64,000 nt of DNA from NCBI RefSeq assembly GCF_014874095.1, contig NZ_JADBEB010000001.1:3968001-4032000 (forward strand), in the 5' to 3' direction. Position 1 is the stretch's first letter, and every line of letters starts with the position of its first letter. The position numbers and the translations under genes were made by a program. This document shows positions 32,787 through 39,387 of the stretch, in pieces. The DNA comes from Plantactinospora soyae (GTDB lineage Bacteria; Actinomycetota; Actinomycetes; Mycobacteriales; Micromonosporaceae). The notes under the pieces were generated by a model. The model was not told the DNA's origin. It was given only the letters and a program-made list of their open reading frames with translations, and did no database searches.

Positions 32787-33185
32787 ATGGGCTACCGGAT
32801 GTTGGTCACGTTGGTCCTGGTGCTGCACTTCGGCTTCCTGGCGTACCTGGTGGTCGGCGGCTTCCTGGCCTGGCGCTGGCCGCGTACCGCCTGGCTGCAC
32901 CTGGCGGCGGCGGCCTGGGCCGTACTGGTGGTCGCGGCCCGACTGGTCTGCCCGCTCACCTACGCGGAGCACTGGGCCCGGCGACGGGCCGGGGAGACCG
33001 GCGTCGGGCAGGGCTTCATCGACCGGTACATCGAGGGCGTGGTCTATCCCGAGCGGTACGCGGCACTCGCCCAGGCCCTGGTCGCGGCGCTGGTGCTGGT
33101 CTCCTGGATCGGCCTGTTCCGCCGGCTCAGGGCAGCGCGGCCACCGCGGCCGCGAAGGCGGCTCCGGTGGCGAGGGTCGCGTTGA
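32787..33185 (+). CDS. DUF2784 family small membrane protein
   Basis: 132 residues with three to four hydrophobic helices: MLVTLVLVLHFGFLAYLVVGGF, AAAAWAVLVVAARLVCPLTYAEHW and ALAQALVAALVLVSWIGLF. The conserved RLVCPLTYAE segment and the overall plan fit DUF2784. Function unknown. ATG 32787 follows GGGAGG; a TTG at 32766 in frame is unlikely. The last 59 nt, coding for a basic tail, overlap the end of the gene on the other strand. Confidence 0.78.
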   Translation: MGYRMLVTLVLVLHFGFLAYLVVGGFLAWRWPRTAWLHLAAAAWAVLVVAARLVCPLTYAEHWARRRAGETGVGQGFIDRYIEGVVYPERYAALAQALVAALVLVSWIGLFRRLRAARPPRPRRRLRWRGSR

Positions 33186-34713
33186 CCAGGATCCCGAGCT
33201 GACCAGCGGCGACGCCGTGCTCCAGGTCGGTGGTGACGTCACCGACGAGGATCAGCTCACCGTCCCCGACGTCCTGCACGTACGCCTTGGGCAGCAGCCG
33301 GTCGTGGTTCCAGGCGTTGCAGAACTCGTACGCCTCGGCGAGCCGGTCCGCCGACAGCCGACGCTCGGCAATCACCCGGGCGTGCAGGATCTCCCGCCGT
33401 TCGCCGAACCGGTGGAACTGGATCAGCGCGTCGCCCCACCGGCCGTTGACCGTACCGTCCGGGTCGACGACGTAGTGGTCCGCCCGCTCGCGCAGAACGT
33501 CGACGATCGCCGCCGTGGTGAGCGGGCCGACCAGTTCGCGGCGACCACCCGGCGGAATCTGCTCCGTCGGCGACCCCTCGTCGACCGGCCCGTCCGGTGG
33601 CAGCGCCACCACGCCCGGAACCGGCCGCTCGGCCAGCCAGCCCGCCATCCGCCCGGACTGGTGGCTGGTGCCGTTCCGGGCGTCGAACCGGCCGGCGAAG
33701 TCCTGGGCGGCGGCCAGCAGTTCGGCACCGAGGGCGGTGACAGTCAGCTCCGCGGCGAGCCGGTCGGCGTACGCCGGGCGGGGGATCGAGTGCCGCTCGA
33801 AGCCGGCCGTGGCGGCCAGCCGGCAGAGCAGGGCACCGGCGGCGGCGAACTCCATCGCCGAGCACTCGTCGTACGGGCGGTCCCACCAGGGAAGATGCCG
33901 GGCGAGGATGTCCAGGCCACGTTCGTAGTGCCCGGTCAGCGCACAGAACCGGAGGTGCTCGGCGAGGAACGGAAACGCGTCCCGTTCGTGGCGGTGTCGC
34001 CGGTAGGCCCGGACGTGCGCCTGGGCGGCGTCGTCGTACCGGCCCAGCCGCAGGTACGCCAACTGCACCGAGGCGAGGGTCCGTTCCGGCTGCTCGGGAC
34101 AGCCCAGTACGCCGGTCAGCACCGGCTGGACGATCTCGATCGCCTCGGCCCACCGCCCCCACGCGGTCAGGAGCTTGGCCTGGTTGGCCGGATCACAGCC
34201 GGCGCAGTCGCTGTTCTCGTCACGGGGCGCGTCCCGCCACTGCGCGAACCAGTGCCGGGCGGCCGACTCGTCGCCGACGTGGTCCGCGATCCGGCACCGC
34301 AGGCTGTACGCCGCGTGCGGGCTGTGCCCGCCGGACCCCAGGCGCCGCTCCAGGTCGGCGAGGGTCTCCTCGGTACGGGCCAGGCCCACCCGCGAGCTGT
34401 CGCGCAGCGCGACCACCGCCCACTTGTGGTACCAGCGCAGCAGTTCCGCCTCGGTCGGATCGAACAGCGCCGGGTCCCGGTCGAAGGCGGCGAGGCACCA
34501 CTCGAACGGAGCGAGCATCCGCCACCGTTCGGTGTGGTAGGCGTGTGCCTCGATCAGCGTGAGCCGGGCCGTGATGCCGAGGCGTACGTCCTCGGCCGCG
34601 TCCGCGTGGGCGACGATCCGGTCCAACTCAGCGATCTTGGTGTCGCCGTCCGGCAGGTCCCGGGCGTCCTCCAACGCGGAGAGCAGTTCGTCCGGGGTCA
34701 CGCGGCTTCCCAC
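33127..34713 (-). CDS. TPR-like protein with C-terminal YbjN domain
   Basis: 528 residues. The first 330 are helical repeats of tetratricopeptide type (TLASVQLAYLRLGRYDDAAQAH and similar). The last ~140 are a YbjN-type domain (FCNAWNHDRLLPKAYV, GDVTTDLEHGVAAGQLGILV). That domain is clearly homologous to the neighbouring YbjN gene (FCNSWNLDRFWPKAFV, GEVVTDLERGVTVAQLDQLV). YbjN domains have a type III secretion chaperone-like fold and are usually cytoplasmic interaction modules. GTG at 34713 is assumed; GTG 34701 is an alternative. The final 59 nt overlap the DUF2784 gene antiparallel. Function is unknown, and the pairing with the single-domain protein suggests a complex. Confidence 0.82.
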   Translation of the reverse strand: MGSRVTPDELLSALEDARDLPDGDTKIAELDRIVAHADAAEDVRLGITARLTLIEAHAYHTERWRMLAPFEWCLAAFDRDPALFDPTEAELLRWYHKWAVVALRDSSRVGLARTEETLADLERRLGSGGHSPHAAYSLRCRIADHVGDESAARHWFAQWRDAPRDENSDCAGCDPANQAKLLTAWGRWAEAIEIVQPVLTGVLGCPEQPERTLASVQLAYLRLGRYDDAAQAHVRAYRRHRHERDAFPFLAEHLRFCALTGHYERGLDILARHLPWWDRPYDECSAMEFAAAGALLCRLAATAGFERHSIPRPAYADRLAAELTVTALGAELLAAAQDFAGRFDARNGTSHQSGRMAGWLAERPVPGVVALPPDGPVDEGSPTEQIPPGGRRELVGPLTTAAIVDVLRERADHYVVDPDGTVNGRWGDALIQFHRFGERREILHARVIAERRLSADRLAEAYEFCNAWNHDRLLPKAYVQDVGDGELILVGDVTTDLEHGVAAGQLGILVNATLATGAAFAAAVAALP

Positions 34714-34816: not shown

Positions 34817-35284
34817 TCAGGGCCGCAGCTCCGCCACGGCCTCCGACATCTGACAGCCGGTCGAGATGCCACAGCCGACCAACTGGTCGAGCTGCGCCAC
34901 GGTGACGCCGCGTTCGAGATCGGTGACGACCTCGCCACACACCCGGGCGCTTCCGTCGTCGTTGACGTGCACGAACGCCTTCGGCCAGAACCGGTCCAGG
35001 TTCCAGGAGTTGCAGAACGCGTAGAGGCCGGGCACGTCGTCGATCGAGAACCGGCTGGCCGCGATCGTACGGATCTGCAGCAGCTCGCCGGCCGTACCGA
35101 GCCGGAAGAAGTAGATGACGTTGTCGTCCCAGCGGCCGACCAGGTCACCGTCCGAATCGGTGTAGTAGGTGTAGCCACGGCCGTCCAGCACGGTGGCGAG
35201 AAGCTCGTTGGTCAACGGCTGCAGGTGTTGCGGTCGGCCACCACCGGGCAGGTCCGGCGCGTCTGACGGGTCCGGCGCGGGCAT
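34817..35284 (-). CDS. YbjN domain-containing protein
   Basis: 155 residues forming a single YbjN domain: YTYYTDSDGDLVGRWDDNV (a sequence like the YVVDPDGTVNGRWGD of the neighbour), then FCNSWNLDRFWPKAFVHV and EVVTDLERGV. ATG 35284 follows CAGGAGGG. It lies directly upstream of the TPR-YbjN gene, separated by 103 nt, so the two are probably in one operon and arose by duplication. Role unknown. Confidence 0.85.
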   Translation of the reverse strand: MPAPDPSDAPDLPGGGRPQHLQPLTNELLATVLDGRGYTYYTDSDGDLVGRWDDNVIYFFRLGTAGELLQIRTIAASRFSIDDVPGLYAFCNSWNLDRFWPKAFVHVNDDGSARVCGEVVTDLERGVTVAQLDQLVGCGISTGCQMSEAVAELRP

Positions 35285-35419
35285 GCGGGTCCCTCCTGGA
35301 CGGCTTGGGCTCTGTCCGTGATCGTATGCGGCACGGTTTGGTGCCGGTAGTCCGGTTCTCCGGGGTAATCCGCTGGTAGACACGGTGGGCAAAAGCGGGG
35401 AATCCTCGGCGGGCGCCGC

Positions 35420-35425
35420 TAACGT
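35420..35425 (+). promoter_or_regulatory. -10 box of ftsK (leaderless)
   Basis: TAACGT ends 8 nt before ATG 35434 and no ribosome site lies between, so the ftsK transcript probably begins at or next to the start codon. Confidence 0.45.
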
Positions 35426-35433
35426 GTGAACTT

Positions 35434-38400
35434 ATGGCGGGCCGTGCCTCCTCTCAGCCGAACCGGCGCCGGAACGGGTCGACCACTCGTACCGGCGCCA
35501 CTCGTGCCGGCAACACCCGAGCGCGTCAGTCCGCGCGGGCCCGAGCCGCGGCGGCACGCCGTCCGGCCCGGACCAGTCCGGCGGTGTACGTCGGCCGCGC
35601 ACTCGGCGGGGCCTGGATGGGGCTGGCCCACGGCGTCGGTTGGGCGATGCGGGCCGCGGGCCGGCAGGCGGCGACCGCACGCGACCTCGATCCGGAACAC
35701 CGACGGGACGGCGCCGGCCTGCTGCTGCTCGGCCTGGCGATCCTGAGCGGCGTGGCGGTCTGGTTCTCCTCGGCCGGACCCGTCGGCGGTCGGCTTGCCG
35801 ACACCATCCGGCTGTTCTTCGGCGCGATCTCCATCGTCCTGCCGGTCCTGCTGCTGATCGGGGCGGTCCGGCTGATGCGGGAGCCGGGCGAGCCGGCGCA
35901 CCGGGGACGAGGACTGGTCGGCTGGACGGCCCTCATCGTCTCCACCGCCGCGCTGCTGCACATCGGCCAGCATCCGGTGACCAACCTCCAGCGGGACTAC
36001 GCCGGTGGCCTGATCGGTGCCGGCGTCGGGCAGCCGCTCGAACAGGCGGTCAGCGCCTGGGTGGCGGTGCCGCTGCTGGTCCTGCTGCTGCTGTTCGGGC
36101 TGCTGGTGGTCACCGCCACCCCGCTCAACAAGGTTCCGGAGCGGCTCGGCCTGCTGGCCGGGGCGGTGCTGGGCCGCCCCGAGACCGACGAGCCCGAGGT
36201 GGAGGAGTCGACGCGGACCCCTTCGGGACGCCGGTCGACCCGACGCCGGTCCGCCCGCCCTGACCTGGCGGACGACGAGGCCGACTACGACGACGACCCG
36301 CCGGCCGAGTCCGTACCGCTGCCGCGCAAGCCGCCGGCCAAGGTGCCCGCCGCCCGCAAGACCCCCGAGCCGCCGGAGCACTCGGCACCGCCGACCCGGG
36401 CCGAGCAGTTGGCGATCACCGGGCTGGCCGGCGACTACAAGCTGCCACCGACCAACCTGCTGCGCCCGGGTGGCGTGGCGAAGACCCGTAGCCGGGCCAA
36501 CGACGAGGTGATCGCGGCACTGACCGGGGTCTTCGACCAGTTCGACGTGGATGCGGCGGTCACCGGCTTCACCCGGGGCCCGACCGTGACCAGGTACGAG
36601 GTCGAGCTGGGACACGGCGTCAAGGTGGAGCGGATCACCCAGCTCTCCCGCAACATCGCGTACGCGGTCAAGTCGCCGGACGTCCGGATCCTCAGCCCGA
36701 TCCCGGGCAAGAGCGCGGTCGGGGTGGAGATCCCGAACAGCGACCGTGAGGACGTGGCGCTCGGCGACGTACTCCGGTCCCGGGCGGCGACGAGTGACCA
36801 CCATCCGATGGTGGTGGCGCTCGGCAAGGACATCGAGGGCGGCTTCGTGGTGGCCAACCTCGCGAAGATGCCGCACATCCTGATCGCGGGCGCCACCGGT
36901 GCTGGGAAGGCTCTCGCCCTGGACACGCCGATCCCCACCCCGGACGGCTGGTCCACAATGGGTGACCTCAAGGTCGGCGGCCGGGTCTTTGACGAGCGCG
37001 GGCGGGCCTGCAACATCGTCGCGGCCACTCCTGTGATGTACGGCCGTCCGTGTTTCGAGGTCGAGTTCTCCGACGGCACCGTGATCGTCGCCGATGCCCA
37101 GCACCAGTGGCGTACGACCACCCGCGCCGGTCGAACACAGCGCACCCACCGGTGGCGGAACGGTTCGTACTGGTCCGCCGACGATGCCAGACTGGTCGCC
37201 AGCCGAACCGAACAGGTGCTCACCGAGCCAGAGCGTCTGGTATCGATCAATGATGTGGTGTCGGATCTCGGTCAGCCGTTTCAGAACGTGCTCCATCACG
37301 TAACCAGAGACCTGCCGAAATTCGGGCTGCGGGCGAGGGTGACCTATCAGCGCGGTGGGCGCGATGTGACACGCTCGGTGCAGACCTACTCGAGTCACCG
37401 GATGTATCAGGCACTCCGTGACCGGATTCTGGCTCCGGGCCGATCGGCCCGGAGACGCGTTCTCGACGATCGGCCGGTCACCACGGCGGAGATCGCCGCG
37501 TCACTCCGCGTGACAGGTCGTAACAACTCGTGGGTCAACCACGCGGTAGCGGTGTGCGAGCCGTTGGAATACCCCGAACAGGATCTTCCGATCGCCCCGT
37601 ACACCCTGGGTTGCTGGTTGGGAGACGGGACGACTCACGCCGCGGGCTTCACCTGCGCCGACGATGAGATCCTCGACTACATCCGTGCGGACGGGTACCT
37701 CGTCAACAGACAACCACGGGGTCGCCTCCACTACACGATCTCGAACAGTCCCGAACGTGGCCGGCGAATCGCCGAAGCGGTGGCGCTGGCCGCTGAGGGT
37801 GTCAGTTTGGCTCGGGCGGCCCGGCACTGCGGCGTCGGTCTCTCGGCGACGTACCGGGCGGCCGACGGCAGATTTCCACCGGGCAAGAGGGCTTCCGCCG
37901 TGCCGACCACGGCGCCTCGGGAGCGCTACCGGACGATGCGCGAAATGTTCCGACAGATCGGCGTCAAGCACATCCCCGACGCGTACCTGCGTGCGTCGGA
38001 GCAGCAGCGGCGAGCGTTGCTGGCGGGCCTACTGGATACGGATGGCACGGTCTCCAAGCACGGCGGTGTCGAGTTCGCGGTCACCAACGAAGCGCTGGCG
38101 CGGGACGTTCTGGAGTTGATTCTCGGCCTCGGTTACCAGGCCAGCCTGACGACGAAGCGGGTCAAGGGTCGCCGCGAGGACAGTTCCACCTGCTACCGGA
38201 TCCACTTCACCCCCCCTGACAAGGTGTTCCGGTTGACCCGGAAGCTGAGTCGACAGGTGACCAGCACCCGGTCCACCACCTCTCAGCGATACATCGTGGA
38301 TGTGCGGCCGATCGAGTCCGTACCAGTCCGATGCATCGAGGTCGACAGCCCGAGTCACCTGTACCTGGCCAGTCGATCCTGTATTCCGACGCACAATTCC

Positions 38401-39387
38401 AGTTGCCTCAACACCCTGTTGGTGTCCGTGCTGACCCGGGCCACCCCGGACGAGGTGCGGCTGCTGCTGATCGACCCCAAGCGGGTCGAGATGACCAACT
38501 ACGAGGGGATCCCGCACCTGGTGACGCCGATCGTCACCAACCCGAAGAAGGCGGCGGACTCGCTGGACTGGGTGGTCCGCGAGATGGACATGCGCTACGA
38601 CGACCTCGCCGCCGCCGGGGTACGGCACATCGACGACTACAACCGCAAGGTGCGGGCCGGCCAGGTCAAGCCGCCAGCGGGCAGCGAGCGGGAGATCCGG
38701 CCGTACCCGTACCTGCTGGTGGTCGTCGACGAGCTGGCCGACCTGATGATGGTCGCCCCGCGCGACGTGGAGGACTCGGTCGTCCGGATCACCCAGCTTG
38801 CCCGCGCCGCCGGCATCCACCTGGTGCTGGCCACCCAGCGTCCCTCGGTCGACGTGGTGACGGGTCTGATCAAGGCGAACGTGCCGTCCCGGCTGGCCTT
38901 CGCGACGTCGTCGCTGGCCGACTCCCGGGTCATCCTCGACCAGCCGGGCGCGGAGAAGCTGATCGGGCGCGGTGACGGCCTCTTCCTGCCGATGGGTGCC
39001 TCGAAACCGGTACGCATCCAGGGTGCCTGGGTCACCGAGAACGAGATCAACGACATCGTCAAGTTCTGCAAGGACCAGCGCGAGCCGGAGTTCCGGCCAG
39101 ACGTACTGGCCCCGGCGCAGGCGACGAAGAAGAAGGTCGACGAGGACATCGGCGACGACCTCGACCTGCTCGTCCAGGCGATCGAGCTGGTGGTCACCTC
39201 CCAGTTCGGCTCCACCTCGATGCTCCAGCGCAAGCTGCGGGTCGGCTTCGCCAAGGCGGGCCGGCTGATGGACCTGATGGAGACCCGGGGCATCGTCGGG
39301 CCGTCCGAGGGCTCGAAGGCCCGGGACGTGCTGGTGAAGCCGGACGAGCTGGATGAGGCCCTCGCCGCCCTCCGCCCACAGGAGTAA
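35434..39387 (+). CDS. ftsK: FtsK/SpoIIIE DNA translocase interrupted by an intein
   Basis: The precursor has 1317 residues; without the intein the protein is 821, a normal actinobacterial FtsK. A basic N-terminus is followed by about four membrane helices (residues 90-230), an acidic/Pro linker, then the RecA-type motor. Walker A reads GATGAGK with its Ser split off by the intein (residues 493-988), and resumes as [12 protein letters not shown]. Walker B is [11 protein letters not shown]. The gamma winged-helix domain ends the protein ([21 protein letters not shown]), and binds KOPS-like sequences. FtsK pumps DNA through the septum during division or sporulation. Its stop lies in a 52-nt palindromic element. 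The host gene is GC-rich like its surroundings, unlike the intein. Confidence 0.95.
36910..38397 (+). other. Class 3-type intein with LAGLIDADG homing endonuclease in ftsK
   Basis: 496 residues inserted in frame between GATGAGK and SSC of the Walker A motif (protein residues 493-988). Residue 1 is Ala ([14 protein letters not shown]), not Cys/Ser/Thr. Block B reads ADAQHQW with His557 and Trp559 (B:12). Block F reads [16 protein letters not shown] with Cys967 (F:4). Block G is CIPTHN with Thr986 (G:5), His987 and Asn988, followed by Ser+1. Trp-Cys-Thr plus Ser+1 is the class 3 signature, where the block F Cys does the first attack. The endonuclease motifs are LGCWLGDG (residues 725-732) and LAGLLDTDG (863-871), both with Asp. 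A helix-turn-helix-like segment ([20 protein letters not shown]) lies between them. Base composition is visibly lower in GC than the extein. Confidence 0.93.

Follow-up and report, generated by a model that had tools for sequence, protein, structure and literature searches.

The ftsK gene of Plantactinospora soyae in the 64,000-nucleotide stretch of DNA analyzed here (the window) very probably carries a class 3 intein that is full-length, includes a LAGLIDADG homing endonuclease, and belongs to a lineage specialized on the Walker A motif of FtsK; both splicing and homing are proposed for it. The insert, placed between GATGAGK and SSC inside the Walker A loop, is a real class 3 homing intein and probably an active one, where the expected splicing chemistry and endonuclease cutting are modelled on experimentally studied relatives. 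As far as the literature searched tells, the FtsK allele lineage is new, while class 3 as a kind of intein is already known. A class 3 intein in FtsK was named in no title or abstract beginning of the searched literature, and a prior mention may exist beyond these. The features of the gene are collected in Table 1.

Table 1. Features of the intein-bearing ftsK gene, in window positions; residues are numbered within the intein unless stated otherwise.
Feature	Position	Strand	Basis
ftsK precursor ORF, 1317 aa	35434..39387	+	ORF translation, Pfam
N-extein of FtsK: 4TM, alpha domain, motor start to GATGAGK; 492 aa	35434..36909	+	
Upstream end of the short tract differing from empty congeners	36895..36909	+	
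Class 3 intein carrying a LAGLIDADG endonuclease; 496 aa (1488 nt), spanning residues 493-988 of the precursor	36910..38397	+	
Ala1, non-nucleophilic first intein residue	36910..36912	+	
Cys34	37009..37011	+	
Cys48, corresponding to the cysteine that is the redox partner in M. smegmatis DnaBi1	37051..37053	+	Alignment; PMC6195587 (available part)
Block B Asp62-x-x-His65	37093..37104	+	
Trp67 (B:12), part of the WCT triplet	37108..37110	+	
Endonuclease block C, LGCWLGDG, Asp239	37606..37629	+	
Weak HTH_23-like stretch within the endonuclease region, below the Pfam cut-off	37762..37857	+	
LAGLIDADG_3 domain; motif LAGLLDTDG at 38020-38046, Asp376, Asp378	38005..38205	+	
Cys475 (F:4; precursor Cys967), predicted first nucleophile	38332..38334	+	
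Thr494 (G:5), His495, Asn496	38389..38397	+	
Ser+1, doubling as the serine of the FtsK Walker A motif	38398..38400	+	
C-extein of FtsK: motor from the Walker A Ser, gamma domain, stop	38398..39387	+	
Co-conversion-like tract on the downstream side, C-extein nt 1-45	38398..38442	+	

Translation of the open reading frame reproduced, exact to the base, the 496-residue in-frame insert that a first-pass annotation had placed in this motif. The residues named there (Ala1, Trp at B:12, Cys967 at F:4, Thr at G:5, the final His-Asn, and Ser+1) were all found in place, those at B:12, F:4, and G:5 by the numbering in the available part of PMC5222942 and by alignment to the structure 6rix, and the computed sum of the exteins matched the proposed spliced length of 821 residues. 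Class 3 inteins are defined by a WCT triplet and a block F cysteine (PMC7664689 and PMC6195587, parts available). Besides the triplet, the window intein has a first residue other than Cys, Ser, or Thr, a block B His, a terminal Asn, and a nucleophile at +1. Its His65 and Trp67 bear the same numbers as His B:10 and Trp B:12 of the Mycobacterium smegmatis DnaB-1 intein, which follows the class 3 splicing route (PMC5222942, same part). The class 3 type given in the annotation was further upheld by conservation among 23 FtsK inteins and by a phmmer search against the PDB, where the top matches were 6rix (E 5.1e-36), 6riy (E 2.5e-35), and 6bs8 (E 1.3e-33). The alignment to 6rix was gap-free and paired query residues 1-71 with chain residues 1-71 and query residues 462-496 with chain residues 111-145. 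Matches were also obtained to PHROG terminase large-subunit profiles (E 4.5e-29), in which inteins are evidently included. Given the E values to 6rix, 6bs8, LAGLIDADG_3, and these terminase profiles, the intein match is not due to chance.

An AlphaFold model of the intein with 10 flanking residues per side, built from 35 aligned sequences, had a mean pLDDT of 87.7 and points to a HINT fold. In a Foldseek search, the model matched 6bs8, 6rix, and 6riy with an rmsd of 1.8-1.9 A across 74 columns at 62-64% identity. Another match, to PI-SceI (E 9e-14, TM 0.49 by query), covered most of the model, where the rmsd of 13.9 A indicates that the domains are placed differently. The VMA intein PI-SceI thus resembles the FtsK intein in the modelled fold of its splicing and LAGLIDADG parts, at 13-14% identity, while its splicing mechanism is class 1, unlike class 3.

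Within the endonuclease part, LAGLIDADG_3 was matched above the Pfam cut-off (E 3.6e-12, residues 366-432), and Hom_end gave an E value of 1.8e-5 (residues 364-434). Only the second LAGLIDADG-type motif, LAGLLDTDG, is covered by a Pfam match above cut-off, and the weak HTH_23-like stretch lies between the two motifs. The acidic Asp residues of LGCWLGDG and LAGLLDTDG were kept in 23/23 FtsK inteins, and in 80/84 and 78/84 DnaB inteins, respectively. Three Micromonosporaceae FtsK inteins are shorter (L111, 461 aa; L117, 464 aa; L144, 410 aa), and their matches stop around residues 260-347, over or adjoining the HTH_23-like stretch, suggesting that this stretch may be dispensable.

The identity of the host protein and the position in its Walker A motif were as the annotation had stated, as Pfam detected FtsK_4TM, FtsK_alpha, FtsK_SpoIIIE split in two pieces, and FtsK_gamma in the ORF, with the junction at GATGAGK/Ser. 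The genome (9.7 Mb, one contig) encodes a single chromosomal FtsK. FtsK_alpha and FtsK_gamma had one match each, both in the intein-bearing ftsK, and the other FtsK_SpoIIIE loci compared, the four last matches being left out, were 24-32% alike to FtsK. The genes 3' of ftsK include an ornithine cyclodeaminase-like gene, a UPF0004/radical SAM/TRAM gene that we take to be RimO/MiaB-like, a CDP-alcohol phosphatidyltransferase gene, and cinA, and such a gene order is typical for chromosomal ftsK in actinomycetes. On its other side are two adjacent YbjN-domain genes (33127-34713 and 34817-35392, both on the minus strand). The intein has a G+C content of 0.654, lower than that of the N-extein (0.736), the C-extein (0.686), and the window as a whole (0.715). 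The ftsK gene is overlapped by long antisense ORFs, such as one of 659 aa at 35419-37398 on the minus strand that had no Pfam match, and these were taken as GC-rich shadow frames. An ftsK orthologue was found in 28/28 chosen Micromonosporaceae genomes and in 7/7 genomes of the genus.

In the proposed mechanism, FtsK would be made as a precursor with its ATP-binding loop split by the intein. Cys475 is predicted to attack the Lys(-1)-Ala1 bond to form a block F branched intermediate, from which the N-extein would be transferred to Ser+1, and Asn496 would cyclize. Ligation of the FtsK halves would then give the spliced motor with an intact GATGAGKS loop. Proper ATP binding is not expected of the precursor before splicing, since the Walker A motif takes its serine from Ser+1; for a P-loop RadA intein, loss of ATPase function is cited in the available part of PMC6195587. 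The intein occupies the ATP-binding loop of the only FtsK in the genome, and the pump should therefore be functional only after intein removal. For homing, the endonuclease would cut an empty ftsK at the insertion site, and repair would copy the intein in along with tens of bases of flanking exon.

Among known systems, the Mycobacterium DnaB class 3 inteins (6bs8, 6rix, 6riy; DnaBi1) share with the FtsK intein an insertion in the P-loop before Ser, as well as Ala1, Cys48, Asp62-x-x-His65, Trp67, the F:4 Cys, and the THN end (PMC6195587 and PMC5222942, available parts). They differ in their host, the DnaB helicase, and in their chains of 139-146 aa without an endonuclease; position 34, a Cys in the FtsK intein, is Thr in the 6rix alignment. 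The class 3 LAGLIDADG inteins of actinomycete DnaB P-loops (75 of the 80 loci L001-L080) were 42-49% identical to the FtsK intein in the best segment, nearly all of them matched query residues 1-496, and the GK/S type of site is common to both. However, they form a separate clade in another host gene, and the FtsK intein endonuclease would have to recognize a DNA site other than theirs. Class 3 terminase inteins of actinobacteriophages also have the WCT triplet, with the TerL1-a site lying after the Lys and before the Thr of the P-loop (PMC5050341, in the part available), but they reside in a phage packaging motor and not in a host motor. In a tblastn search, the intein matched 516 phage records, all at less than 60% identity, and no FtsK annotation occurred among the 60 of these that were listed.

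A search for FtsK alleles of this class, as the annotation had suggested, recovered them from 21 Micromonosporaceae genomes and two Streptosporangiaceae MAGs. The claim that such an intein is unusual in FtsK held across the phylum, where the true cases in genome draws (1/396 for the phylum, 11/397 for the order, 1/394 for the class) all fell within Micromonosporaceae; the draws overlap, and they also gave 2, 3, and 1 chance pattern matches, respectively. The claim was less apt within Micromonosporaceae, where the FtsK junction pattern, which demands Ala then Leu or Phe at the intein start and misses other starts, was found in 21/354 genomes and 4/44 genera (by genus label: g1, 1/7; g16, 6/22; g24, 13/160; g27, 1/1). 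Some relative of the intein (E 1e-10) was present in 141/354 genomes of the family. Three occupied genomes of this family contain inteins identical to those in named Micromonospora records, on which the family name Micromonosporaceae rests. Pattern matches at L125, L126, L214, and L215 outside the family and at L161 inside it had no intein end and were rejected. The P. soyae genome contained one intein match. All seven genomes of the genus encode FtsK, and the six congeners are empty, their motor part being 94-98% identical where compared. Among named genomes, a protein scan for which 80 of 211 relatives were kept placed five inteins in FtsK (three in Micromonospora, two in Streptosporangiaceae MAGs) and 75 in the DnaB P-loop, the DnaB identity being assigned from the flanks by eye. 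L001-L003, with inteins identical to L098, L101, and L102, were left out of the counts, as were L069 (intein split by frame) and L197 (site not found).

In a tree of 69 inteins, the 23 FtsK inteins formed one clade (support 99/95). Within it, the 21 from Micromonosporaceae formed one clade (100/98). The FtsK inteins from Micromonosporaceae and Streptosporangiaceae are hence most closely related to each other, although DnaB inteins occur in both families. On the other side of the tree fell 43 DnaB inteins (96/96), which were chosen by the authors among 84 DnaB inteins, comprising 74 of 75 from the 80 kept loci and 10 from 30 further loci. Rooted by three phage or plasmid inteins with very long branches (L164, L168, L169), the FtsK and DnaB intein clades were sisters, and the intein may have passed between the two host genes either way; L165-L167 gave no intein by motif, and L163 was unused.

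At the threshold used, five positions (20, 27, 29, 34, and 136) separated the FtsK from the DnaB lineage, and the splicing part contains four of these. Position 34 was Cys in 23/23 FtsK inteins, while it was Thr in 84/84 and Cys in 0/84 DnaB inteins. Cys48 and the F:4 Cys were present in 23/23 FtsK and 84/84 DnaB inteins (Cys48 in 107/107 overall). The class 3 residues were present in all 23 aligned FtsK inteins, where extraction had partly required Ala1, the F:4 Cys, the terminal His-Asn, and the +1 residue, but not Cys34, Cys48, Asp62, His65, Trp67, Thr494, or the endonuclease residues.

A phage FtsK as the direct intein source was not supported by the viral contigs or the protein scan. The junction pattern occurred in 16 viral contigs, of which 15 had no intein end and one (L204) had a class 3-looking intein with Thr at +1 in a host protein that was not FtsK-like by eye; the only protein-scan match among viruses appeared terminase-like by eye. 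Cluster J phages carry an FtsK-like gene, for which the available part of PMC3706429 mentions no intein, while it does name inteins of terminases and of ET08 gp202. Separately, an FtsK/SpoIIIE domain-containing protein of the Curtobacterium plasmid pS16 (L162) appeared by eye to carry a class 3-looking intein after PGANDLK, with a block F Cys, a THN end, and Thr+1, while the protein's own Walker A (GVTGAGKS) was intact.

With the site region removed, a DNA tree of FtsK (55 rows) required at least 15 changes in intein presence, 11 of these forced by well supported branches. Shuffled labels on the same tree gave a mean of 17.5 changes, with 67/500 as low as 15. The empty rows were author-chosen, with 28 of 333 pattern-free Micromonosporaceae genomes and the six congeners, and L144 was omitted from this tree and from the exon comparisons because its downstream part is short. 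Between the window and L094, dS was 1.09 in the intein and 0.34 in the downstream exon, while among L095-L097 and among L101-L103 intein and exon dS agreed. The dS pattern and the sporadic presence fit a history in which the intein was gained repeatedly, from donors that had diverged, and was in part inherited vertically.

Occupied ftsK genes diverged from their nearest empty relative most strongly at -15 to +45 nt of the insertion point, as homing with co-conversion would give, with a weaker excess in empty genes too. For example, the window gene is 95% identical to the empty L130 outside the site, but differs from it at 17 of 60 nt around the insertion point vs. 45 of 1080 elsewhere. Against the occupied L097, it had 7/60 mismatches at the site. 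The median occupied-empty mismatch rate at the site over 22 occupied genes was 3.62 times that elsewhere, compared with 1.98 for empty-empty pairs, 1.41 for these without the window's genus, and 1.49 for occupied-occupied pairs. The interval was set after inspecting the window's own data, while the remaining 21 genes provide a fresh test of it. The excess of occupied-empty over empty-empty ratios gave a Mann-Whitney p of 0.0015 with dependent pairs, as the compared pairs share sequences. In 11 other 60-nt intervals, the occupied-empty ratio was at most 1.34, and one of them, 45-105, gave a p value of 0.034 with its ratio at 0.91. Fisher p values below 0.05 at the site were obtained in 21/22 occupied-empty, 19/33 empty-empty, and 8/22 occupied-occupied comparisons. 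In the window's genus, the odds at the site were 7-9 for four of the six empty congeners (L128, L129, L131, and L132, forming three distinct pairs). These thus differ unusually strongly from each other in the 60 nt, which perhaps reflects scars of past gain and loss, resistance to cutting, or a fast-evolving stretch, and the tract of the occupied genes could in part be due to such scars or to such a stretch.

It is unlikely that, instead of co-conversion, a fast local rate of change or codon selection in the exon, for splicing context or resistance to cutting, gave rise to the tract. Empty genes do vary at the site as well, strongly so in the window's genus, but occupied-occupied pairs had little excess there, and the window gene and L097 share GGTGCTGGGAAG and TCCAGTTGCCT on the two sides of the insertion point although L097 is of another genus. 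Between -22 and +32, the window gene departs from at least five of the six congeners at ten sites; two change the residue, as codon selection might produce, while seven are third codon positions. A decayed intein that has lost splicing, leaving ftsK dead, is hardly credible: the case for splicing comes indirectly through relatives, but the 496 codons have no stop or frameshift, the catalytic residues are intact, and the genome has no second FtsK. Additionally, dN/dS in 12 pairs was low in both the splicing part (0.05-0.17) and the endonuclease part (0.05-0.24), and both are under purifying selection.

The intein might also have been kept as a redox-conditional switch, in which oxidation of Cys475 with Cys48, perhaps also Cys34, pauses splicing, FtsK ATPase activity, and septal DNA pumping under oxidative stress. 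In DnaBi1 of the M. smegmatis DnaB P-loop, a Cys48-Cys118 disulfide forms under H2O2 and oxidation inhibits splicing (PMC6195587, available part), and the invariance of Cys48 and the F:4 Cys in both lineages, together with a Cys34 confined to the FtsK inteins, would suit such a role. The same part of that source, which calls Cys48 non-conserved in contrast to its presence in every P-loop class 3 intein aligned here, reports that all Cys48 replacements tried in DnaBi1 abolished splicing; conservation of Cys48 thus requires no regulatory reason. Presence of the FtsK intein among close relatives is sporadic, with a number of changes near that of shuffled labels and six congeners without it, and therefore looks selfish rather than a retained switch. 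We consider such a switch quite unlikely. Very unlikely is the combined proposal that the FtsK inteins, as a distinct lineage with Cys34 as a third invariant cysteine, render the last step of chromosome segregation redox-conditional while homing among species.

Under the preferred reading of a homing class 3 intein, splicing by a block F cysteine would be placed in the host's own septal DNA pump, with the Walker A serine doubling as a splicing nucleophile. Close species supply a natural series of occupied and empty ftsK alleles, which opens the questions of what a splicing-dependent chromosome motor costs the cell and whether inteins of this sort serve themselves or regulate their host. If the co-conversion reading is true, the exon tracts would be a natural trace of homing among actinomycetes.
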